Assembly (NCBI RefSeq): GCF_017352155.2
Contig: NZ_CP071462.1
Coordinates: 2,108,001-2,172,000 of the forward strand
DNA length: 64,000 nt
Reading direction: 5' to 3'
Source of the DNA: Haloterrigena alkaliphila
Lineage (GTDB): Archaea > Halobacteriota > Halobacteria > Halobacteriales > Natrialbaceae
Under the pieces are notes generated by a model that was not told the origin of the DNA, did no database searches, and saw nothing but the letters and a program-made list of their open reading frames with translations. This document shows positions 55,716 through 59,512 of this stretch, in pieces. How positions within the stretch are numbered: position 1 is the stretch's first letter; every line of letters starts with the position of its first letter. The translations under genes were made by a program, and so were the position numbers.

Positions 55716-57302
<1,587 letters not shown>

Positions 57303-57322: not shown

Positions 57323-58846
57323 TCACGCGAGATTGAGCAGCGGCACGACGCCGAACCAGACCAGAAAGGAAAGCGACGCGGCCATTAGCCCGTCGATGCG
57401 GGCCGGTTCCGTCCGGTCCCACAGCCGATTCTTGAGGAGCCAGCCCAGTCCGAGCGCGTGCGGGACGCTGAGGGCGACGAGCGAGCCGTAGGCTCCGCCG
57501 GCGACGTCGAACGCCACCCAGACGAGCGCCGTCGCGCAGGCCAGCACCGCGGTCGCCGTCGCCACCGTCGCGGCGCCGTCGATGCCGAAGCGGACGGCGA
57601 TCGTCTCCTTGCCGGCGGCTCGGTCGGCGGCGCGATCCGGGACGCCCGCCAGCGTGATCGACGGCAGCACCGACAGCAGGAACGGCACCGAGAGCAGCCA
57701 CGGGAGCGGATCCGTCGGTGCGCCGCCGAGGAGAACGTAGCCGACCAGCAACACCCCCGTGCTGTGGGTGACGGCCACGTCGAGTTCGCCGAGCGTTCGG
57801 TACGAGAGCTCGAGCGGCGGGATCGTGTACCCCAGCGCCAGCAGCCCCAGCACGGCCATGACGGCCGCCGCGGCGACCGCGGGGCCGGGAGCGACCGCGA
57901 GGGCTCCCGCGGCCGACGCGACGGCCAGCGCGAGCGCGACGCCGAACCCTCGTCTGAGATCGTCGAACTCGAGGTCGCCGTCGACGAGTACCTGCGAACC
58001 CCCCGTAAAGGGACCGGCGAACCCGTTCTCGCGGTCGGTGGGATAGTCGACGTACTCGTTGGAGAGCACCGTCGCCGCCTCGAGGAAGAAGAGGAAGGCG
58101 AAGCCCAGCCAGTAGGCGGGCGACGAGAGCACGCCGCTCGAGCCGGTCGCCGCCAGCGCGCCGATGGTGTAGGCCACCCACGCCATCGGGTAGAACTGCA
58201 GTCGCAGCGCCTTCAGCCACGCCGTCGCCCGGCGGCGAACGCGAGTCGACGGCGCGTCGGGCCCGTCGGCGAGGCGTCTGCCCAGCCCTGCGGCCTGCTC
58301 GAGCCACTGCTCGCGCTTCTCGGGCGTCGACGACTCGACGGGACCGAGGTTCGTGATCCGCGTGGTTCGGATCCCCGCGTAGCCCAGCGTCGCGCGCTTG
58401 ACGGCGTTGTTCCCCGGCTGGCGGTAGATCCAGCGGTAGACCCACGGCGGCATGTCCATCGTGACGATCAGTTCGGCGGTTTTGTCGTCCAACAACCCCT
58501 CGTGACCCGCTCCCTCGCCGTCCTCGTACTCGAAGAACGCGAAGCCGGGGGTGAAGACCCGGTCGAAGAAGCCCTTGAGTCGCGCCGGCATCGTCCCCCA
58601 CCAGTTCGGGTAGACGAAGACGAGGTGGTCGGCCCACTCGATCGAGTCCTGCGCCGCCTGCAGGTCGGGTTCCAGTCGCTGTTCGGTCGGCGAGACCTCG
58701 CGGACGTCCGGATCGAACTCGCAGTCGGCGACGGCGAGTTCCCGGACCTCGCAGCCGGCCTCGCGGGCTCCCTCGCCGTAGGCGTCGGCCAGCGCGCCGC
58801 AGAGGCTGTCGGTCCGGGGATGTCCGAGGAGGATCAGGACGTTCAT
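57323..58846 (-). CDS. fusion of NAD(P)H quinone-oxidoreductase-like and UbiA prenyltransferase domains
   Basis: The N-terminal 200 residues form a flavodoxin-like NQO/KefF fold (NVLILLGHPRTDSL; VYPNWWGTMPARLKGFFDRVF). From about residue 205 a UbiA-type integral membrane prenyltransferase follows, with eight or so helices. It has the first Asp-rich motif NEYVDYPTDRENG (about 263-275) and the second in DRAADRAAGKETIAVRFG. The 507-residue chain thus joins a quinone reductase-like enzyme to a menaquinone-type (or other) prenyltransferase. Start MNVLILLGHP avoids a 52-residue non-homologous extension. Confidence 0.88.
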   Translation of the reverse strand: MNVLILLGHPRTDSLCGALADAYGEGAREAGCEVRELAVADCEFDPDVREVSPTEQRLEPDLQAAQDSIEWADHLVFVYPNWWGTMPARLKGFFDRVFTPGFAFFEYEDGEGAGHEGLLDDKTAELIVTMDMPPWVYRWIYRQPGNNAVKRATLGYAGIRTTRITNLGPVESSTPEKREQWLEQAAGLGRRLADGPDAPSTRVRRRATAWLKALRLQFYPMAWVAYTIGALAATGSSGVLSSPAYWLGFAFLFFLEAATVLSNEYVDYPTDRENGFAGPFTGGSQVLVDGDLEFDDLRRGFGVALALAVASAAGALAVAPGPAVAAAAVMAVLGLLALGYTIPPLELSYRTLGELDVAVTHSTGVLLVGYVLLGGAPTDPLPWLLSVPFLLSVLPSITLAGVPDRAADRAAGKETIAVRFGIDGAATVATATAVLACATALVWVAFDVAGGAYGSLVALSVPHALGLGWLLKNRLWDRTEPARIDGLMAASLSFLVWFGVVPLLNLA

Positions 58847-59104
58847 GGGACGTCGTACCCGCCCGTAACGACGACGGTGGCCTAAAAGACGGGGCTTGAC
58901 GACCCGGAGATGAACAGAACGTTCGGTTCCAACCGGCGAGTGACCGTCGATTTGATCGGCGTCCGTTCGCCGATCTCGAGACCGACGGGACCGGTGGCGC
59001 AACGATAGACCGGGTACCGGTACGAACCGCTCACGAGCCCACAGTAGCCATCATATCAACGTTCAATATCGTACCGGGGCCGGATAGGTGCAGGGAGACC
59101 GTTC

Positions 59105-59512
59105 ATGTCCACGTCAGATCCCGCCCCCGAAACCGCCGACCGAGTCGTCGAGGACTACGTCTTCGGCGTTCGCATCGTCGACGACGAAACCGACGGGTAC
59201 CGGTTCGAGGCCCCCGAACACACCGATATCGCGTTCGAGAGCCTCGAGGACGCCCGCCTGTACGCCGACGTCTACTTCGACGTCAACGGCTTCGTCGAGG
59301 AGGGGACCGGCGAGCGCGGCGTGCCGCCGGAAGTCGTTCAGGCCGGCAAAGACACCCTCGCCGCCTACCTCGTGACGATGCCGTGGGCCGACGTCAACTG
59401 GGTCGCCTCGTTCTACGGAATGACGACCCAGGAGGTCGATCGCTACTGCTCGTGGGTCCGCGACCGCGCGGCGGAAATCCGTACCGAGGCGGCAACAATC
59501 GACCTCGAGTAG
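59105..59512 (+). CDS. conserved haloarchaeal hypothetical protein
   Basis: A 135-residue acidic protein: DRVVEDYVFGVRIVDDETDGYRFEAPEH in the first part, YADVYFDVNGFVEEGTGERGVPPEVV in the middle, and a C-terminal helical part with VNWVASFYGMT. No signal, membrane segment or cysteine pair. Function unknown. It stands between the fused UbiA gene and the PhoX-like gene. Confidence 0.75.
   Translation: MSTSDPAPETADRVVEDYVFGVRIVDDETDGYRFEAPEHTDIAFESLEDARLYADVYFDVNGFVEEGTGERGVPPEVVQAGKDTLAAYLVTMPWADVNWVASFYGMTTQEVDRYCSWVRDRAAEIRTEAATIDLE

Follow-up and report, generated by a model that had tools for sequence, protein, structure and literature searches.

A haloarchaeal gene fusing an NQO-type reductase domain to a UbiA prenyltransferase domain, with a possible role in reductive prenylation

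Introduction

One reading frame of the haloarchaeon Haloterrigena alkaliphila joins a quinone reductase-like flavodoxin domain to a membrane prenyltransferase domain, which raises the question of what such a protein would do. Prenyl transfer onto a quinone ring requires the ring to be reduced, and to our knowledge there is no clear account of how cells supply the reduced ring to UBIAD1-type enzymes. A naturally occurring fusion suggests what type of reductase could serve as the partner, and makes coupling testable in a single protein. No description of the fusion was met in the literature searched, which covered few subscription journals, and a fusion of an NQO-type reductase with UbiA seems to be undescribed. 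The single annotated record that we examined labels the protein only as 'NAD(P)H-dependent oxidoreductase', and its membrane half was therefore overlooked there. The window analysed here is a stretch of 64,000 nucleotides (contig NZ_CP071462.1, positions 2,108,001 to 2,172,000), to which coordinates refer unless another sequence is named.

The gene and its domains

A preliminary description of this locus, made by reading the sequence alone, proposed a frame of 507 residues in which both domains are complete and uninterrupted. The frame exists and lies on the minus strand, running from an ATG at 58846-58844 to a stop at 57323 and encoding 507 amino acids (Table 1), while the plus strand of 57323-58846 encodes no such protein. 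The two halves are indeed in one frame, with no stop or frameshift between them, as they are in full-length homologues. An upstream TTG start at 59002, given in the list of open reading frames, was rejected; relatives start at the ATG at 58846. The neighbouring plus-strand frame at 55716-57302, by eye presumably a cofactor-independent phosphoglycerate mutase, ends 20 bases from the stop of the fusion, and the other neighbour is a small plus-strand frame at 59105-59512. No operon is evident around the fusion in the window.

Table 1. Features of the fusion gene (positions in the window)
Feature	Position	Strand	Basis or remark
Fusion gene, N-terminal NQO-type flavodoxin and C-terminal UbiA prenyltransferase	57323..58846	-	507 aa; open reading frame and domains
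Flavodoxin_2 / NAD(P)H:quinone reductase domain, residues 1-184	58295..58846	-	Pfam, PDB relatives, motifs
Variable linker / helix between domains, residues 185-206	58229..58294	-	Identity, dN/dS
UbiA prenyltransferase domain, residues ~207-507	57326..58228	-	Pfam, model, Foldseek, profile match
Asp-rich motif 1, NEYVDYPTD, residues 263-271	58034..58060	-	Then PFTGGS at 279-284
Asp-rich motif 2, DRAAD, residues 404-408	57623..57637	-	Then K413, T415

The N-terminal half is a complete NQO-type domain, as had been proposed. Residues 1-184 match Flavodoxin_2 (PF02525) with 129.2 bits (cut-off 27; E 2.1e-37) over nearly the full Pfam profile, positions 1-193 of 198. The flavin-site motifs GHPRxxS (8-14) and WWGTxPAxxKxxxDR (82-96) are present, and G8, H9, P10, R11, S14, W82, W83, K91, D95 and R96 are invariant in a set of 64 fusion sequences that is mostly haloarchaeal and partly redundant, the same genomes having entered by two routes. 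The relatives of this half in the PDB are 3lcm/4f8y, 4r81, NQO1 and NQO2; Foldseek gave E values of about 1e-9 to NQO1, NQO2 and 3lcm, and also matched the M. marburgensis NQO (4r81). By profile, motifs and fold, we therefore place it among the Flavodoxin_2 / NQO-type quinone reductases, with flavin binding and NAD(P)H activity predicted. In the host genome it is the sole strong Flavodoxin_2 match, with one other, weak, match of 40.9 bits.

The C-terminal half carries the UbiA domain and both of the Asp-rich motifs that had been noted. Residues 227-482 match UbiA (PF01040) with 64.2 bits (cut-off 34.2; E 1.5e-17), covering profile positions 6-238 of 250. Within motif 1, N263, D267 and D271 (N263-x3-D267-x3-D271) are invariant among the 64 fusions, as are the PF-GGS positions, and the same is true of D404 and D408 of motif 2 (D404-x3-D408) and of K413 and T415. 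Foldseek matched this half to A. fulgidus UbiA (4tq3), and the first match of its profile against the PDB was UBIAD1 (8djk, E 5e-7). The curated profile and the two motifs identify it as a UbiA superfamily prenyltransferase, and prenyl transfer is predicted.

The linker has 68-77% identity to relatives, compared with 76-90% in the domains, and a dN/dS of 0.16-0.30. Comparison with close relatives gave dN/dS values of 0.12-0.30 for all three parts (reductase half, linker and UbiA half); each of them is subject to purifying selection.

The AlphaFold2 model of the 507-residue protein has a mean pLDDT of 86.8, being confident in both domains and low only at residues 105-115, and a pTM of 0.75, with the relative placement of the two domains less sure. 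The model gives the UbiA domain nine long helices; membrane segments could not be counted cleanly by simple hydropathy. In UbiA enzymes the N-terminus is cytosolic and the active site faces the cytosol, and the N-terminal soluble reductase would therefore sit on the correct side of the membrane to feed the UbiA domain.

Distribution and origin of the fusion

An intact full-length fusion in one open frame occurs in 33 of 392 sampled genomes of the order to which the host belongs, 30 of them in the host's own family and 3 in one other. Full-length bacterial homologues, at approximately 45-53% identity, were found in Geothrix, Litchfieldella, Lutibaculum, a Burkholderiaceae MAG, and gammaproteobacterial and Gemmatimonadetes MAGs; further Acidobacteriota also carry the fusion, as does a megaplasmid of Roseinatronobacter (45.5% identity). 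Besides haloarchaea, the conserved fusion thus spans Acidobacteriota, several Pseudomonadota and Gemmatimonadota, which include unrelated bacteria from soils and soda lakes. A search of phage families gave no matches.

This distribution disposes of the reading that two genes were joined here through sequencing or assembly error, to which we attach virtually no probability. No evidence was found to support it, and it is refuted by the occurrence of the same open frame in the 33 genomes of the haloarchaeal order and in independent assemblies of bacteria; chance or sequencing error is excluded because each full-length homologue is a single open frame. We looked for close relatives with separate halves, combined with a frame error in the present gene, and found no such case.

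The phylogenetic trees bear on the origin of the fusion. The reductase halves fall into a single clade that excludes the stand-alone reductases (SH-aLRT 98); its sole apparently solo member, L069, is cut off by the end of its contig. A single clade likewise unites the UbiA halves (support of 100 in one tree and 100/100 in another), with the haloarchaeal sequences nested among the bacterial ones. Because each half forms one clade, the data point to a single ancient fusion that spread between bacteria and archaea. On the simplest reading it arose in bacteria and was then transferred to haloarchaea, although the root of the trees is uncertain and they have long branches and uneven sampling.

Two copies deserve separate mention. 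L047, a copy on a contig assigned to Gemmatimonadetes, has 62% identity and groups with the haloarchaeal sequences, while the other Gemmatimonadetes copy has 48% identity; L047 may be a recent transfer or a misbinned contig. In Natronolimnohabitans sp. A-GB9 (L063:6001-7182) the fusion lacks about 105 residues (around 232-337), in frame, and with them Asp motif 1, and this copy may be degenerating or may serve as a reductase only.

Lone halves were also sought. The only separate UbiA halves found are at three Holophagaceae loci, which share with the Geothrix fusions their ispE and ABC-transporter neighbours, and the two of these that were placed in the trees both nest among fusions. The shared context and the nesting make secondary loss of the reductase half the most likely explanation, the UbiA domain being the part retained. 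At these three loci the reductase would be dispensable or supplied in trans, which we count against our preferred explanation of the fusion, given below. The same loci also bear on the view that the UbiA half only anchors a quinone reductase in the membrane, to recycle or detoxify the quinones there. NQO-type enzymes are known to act on lipophilic quinones, and among close relatives conservation is slightly higher in the flavodoxin half than in the UbiA half, both of which suit an anchor. However, the UbiA half shows no variation at its catalytic Asp, Asn and Lys motif positions, and Holophagaceae keep UbiA and lose the reductase, whereas a mere anchor should have been the half to go. We consider this view very improbable.

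Quinone pathways of the carriers

The preliminary description implied a link to the menaquinone of the host. The host genome contains nine UbiA-family genes, among which a canonical MenA (397 bits, cut-off 264) is separate from the fusion; a DGGGP synthase and a heme O synthase are also present, and MenB scores above its cut-off. Since canonical MenA and MenB are present, the fusion is extra to housekeeping. There are five further UbiA-family genes (G000:C1 470038, 1099586, 1219186, 3357429 and 3421352), one being a PRK12875-type prenyltransferase, and that at 3421352 matches no NCBIfam model at E 1e-10.

Among the bacterial carriers, two members of the futalosine-pathway family PF02621 occur in Geothrix, together with an MqnP/UbiA-like enzyme. 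Litchfieldella, Lutibaculum and the Burkholderiaceae MAG (G392, G395 and G398) have a ubiquinone UbiA, and profile searches of these assemblies, which are possibly incomplete (as the MAG G398 may be), found neither MenB over its equivalog cut-off nor MqnA/D. Other carriers do have a menaquinone pathway. As judged by gene content, the fusion accompanies three primary quinone routes: Men, futalosine (Mqn) and ubiquinone. Because its carriers use three different routes, it is probably an accessory enzyme and not the MenA of menaquinone synthesis, and the implied link to host menaquinone is correspondingly weakened.

It could still be argued that the fusion is an extra MenA, whose UbiA half prenylates DHNA for menaquinone while the reductase keeps DHNA or demethylmenaquinone reduced. 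The curated models that best match the UbiA half do include those of MenA, and in the UbiA tree the fusion halves lie inside a clade with MenA and UBIAD1 (96/87), on a long-stemmed branch of their own (100/100), UBIAD1 itself being a long branch. However, the best MenA model scores 41.8 bits against a cut-off of 277, and the half falls far below every MenA cut-off; the host has its MenA elsewhere; and the three ubiquinone-type carriers just named speak against it. Together with the loss of a conserved Asn, described next, this makes an extra MenA improbable.

The acceptor of the UbiA half

Position 400 aligns with N232 of UBIAD1, which is Asn also in MenA; in the 64 fusions it is Ala (50) or Ser (14). 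In UBIAD1 the N232S substitution strongly lowers MK synthesis (PMC4398444), which makes a naphthoquinone acceptor doubtful. The alignment further shows that motif 1 of the fusion has the N-x3-D-x3-D spacing of the UbiA/DGGGP synthase type, where MenA and UBIAD1 have N-x3-D-x5-D. From the loss of the Asn and the difference in spacing, the acceptor is probably another ring, and not menadione or DHNA. We would class the family as a new subfamily of unassigned substrate, within the UbiA branch to which MenA and UBIAD1 belong.

Gene neighbourhoods

In Geothrix/Holophagaceae the gene order is ispE, fusion, ABC ATPase, ABC-2 permease. In Geothrix and its relatives (L052, L055, L056, L066, L068 and L072), the gene immediately after an ispE-like one is the fusion or the lone UbiA half, and an ABC-2 type exporter comes next, which could hint at an exported isoprenoid product. 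Downstream of the fusion in one Natrialbaceae group lies a siderophore-type ABC transporter, and other carriers have unrelated genes. No partner gene was conserved across lineages among the neighbourhoods compared, and gene context was accordingly dropped as a clue to the substrate. Such variation by lineage is as expected for a gene that works alone. We also observed that stand-alone haloarchaeal UbiA genes with PFSGGS adjoin a conserved frame in 7 of 10 loci (L170, L172, L173, L175, L176, L177 and L179; about 2.0-4.7 kb), which we take to resemble DUF547.

Proposed function

The preliminary description had also suggested that reduction of a quinone-like substrate is coupled to its prenylation. 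The fusion, the domain identities and the intact frame that it described are all supported, and by inference the coupling is still the best reading. In its favour are the functional motifs retained by both domains in the 64 sequences, the closest solved relatives (NAD(P)H:quinone oxidoreductases for one half, UBIAD1 for the other), the clade that the UbiA half shares with MenA and UBIAD1, and purifying selection on both halves. The cytosolic flavodoxin domain would bind flavin, accept hydride from NAD(P)H and reduce a quinone-type aromatic ring by two electrons to the hydroquinone, to which the UbiA domain, with its Asp motifs for Mg2+-diphosphate, would attach a polyprenyl chain at the membrane. 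The oxidised ring would not accept the chain, the hydroquinone being the activated form. Without DTT, UBIAD1 forms no MK-4, and the authors of that study conclude that reduction of menadione is a prerequisite for its prenylation (PMC4398444). This is the step that a fused quinone reductase would provide. The acceptor may be an exogenous or recycled quinone-like ring, and the gene would have a self-contained function, accessory or in salvage or stress, alongside the normal quinone pathway, which would explain its solo movement between organisms with different respiratory quinones. We give this bifunctional, membrane-bound 'reductive prenyltransferase' acting beside the host quinone pathway a little under an even chance of being correct. 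The fusion itself, its motifs, its conservation, the common ancestry and the presence of separate primary prenyltransferases are established; the order of the reactions, the use of flavin and NAD(P)H, the identity of the acceptor and the accessory role are all inferred.

The reductase might instead act after prenylation or on another partner, UbiA prenylating a non-quinone aromatic and the flavodoxin domain keeping the product or the membrane quinone pool as quinol, as an antioxidant. The Roseinatronobacter fusion adjoins genes for a sigma factor, catalase and superoxide dismutase, TetR-type regulators lie next to several stand-alone reductase relatives, as they do for inducible stress reductases, and loss of the naphthoquinone-linked Asn is also compatible with this. 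However, the stress context is one locus, neighbours in other carriers are unrelated, and an antioxidant role explains the single chain no better than direct hand-over of substrate does. We regard it as unlikely, if plausible.

Returning to coupled reduction and prenylation, its wider form would be a new class of self-contained reductive prenyltransferase whose product is a prenylated hydroquinone or aromatic lipid not yet described. The acceptor would differ from DHNA, menadione and 4-hydroxybenzoate, and the gene would have been exchanged between haloarchaea, Acidobacteriota, Gemmatimonadota and Pseudomonadota. This is a tentative proposal, whose chances we put well below even. The fusion also points to an additional prenylated compound where the quinone inventory was thought complete.

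Comparison with known systems

The best solved match to the profile of the UbiA half is the vertebrate menadione prenyltransferase UBIAD1 (8djk), which needs its quinone to be reduced first. However, UBIAD1 lacks a reductase domain, the fusion has Ala or Ser in place of its N232, and the spacing of motif 1 differs. MenA, the DHNA polyprenyltransferase (NF004751 / TIGR00751), belongs to the same larger clade of the UbiA superfamily and shares the D-x3-D-x3-GK-x-T type of motif 2, but the fusion falls far below its curated cut-offs and the host has a separate canonical MenA. The reductase half has the same Flavodoxin_2 fold and WW...PA.LKG..DRV signature as S. mutans Smu.1420 (3lcm/4f8y), M. marburgensis NQO (4r81) and human NQO1/NQO2; these are stand-alone soluble proteins, whereas the domain in the fusion is joined to a membrane prenyltransferase. 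Its nearest relatives are stand-alone bacterial Flavodoxin_2 reductases (approximately 45-55% identical; L070-L111), which are unfused and have no UbiA gene in the flanks examined.
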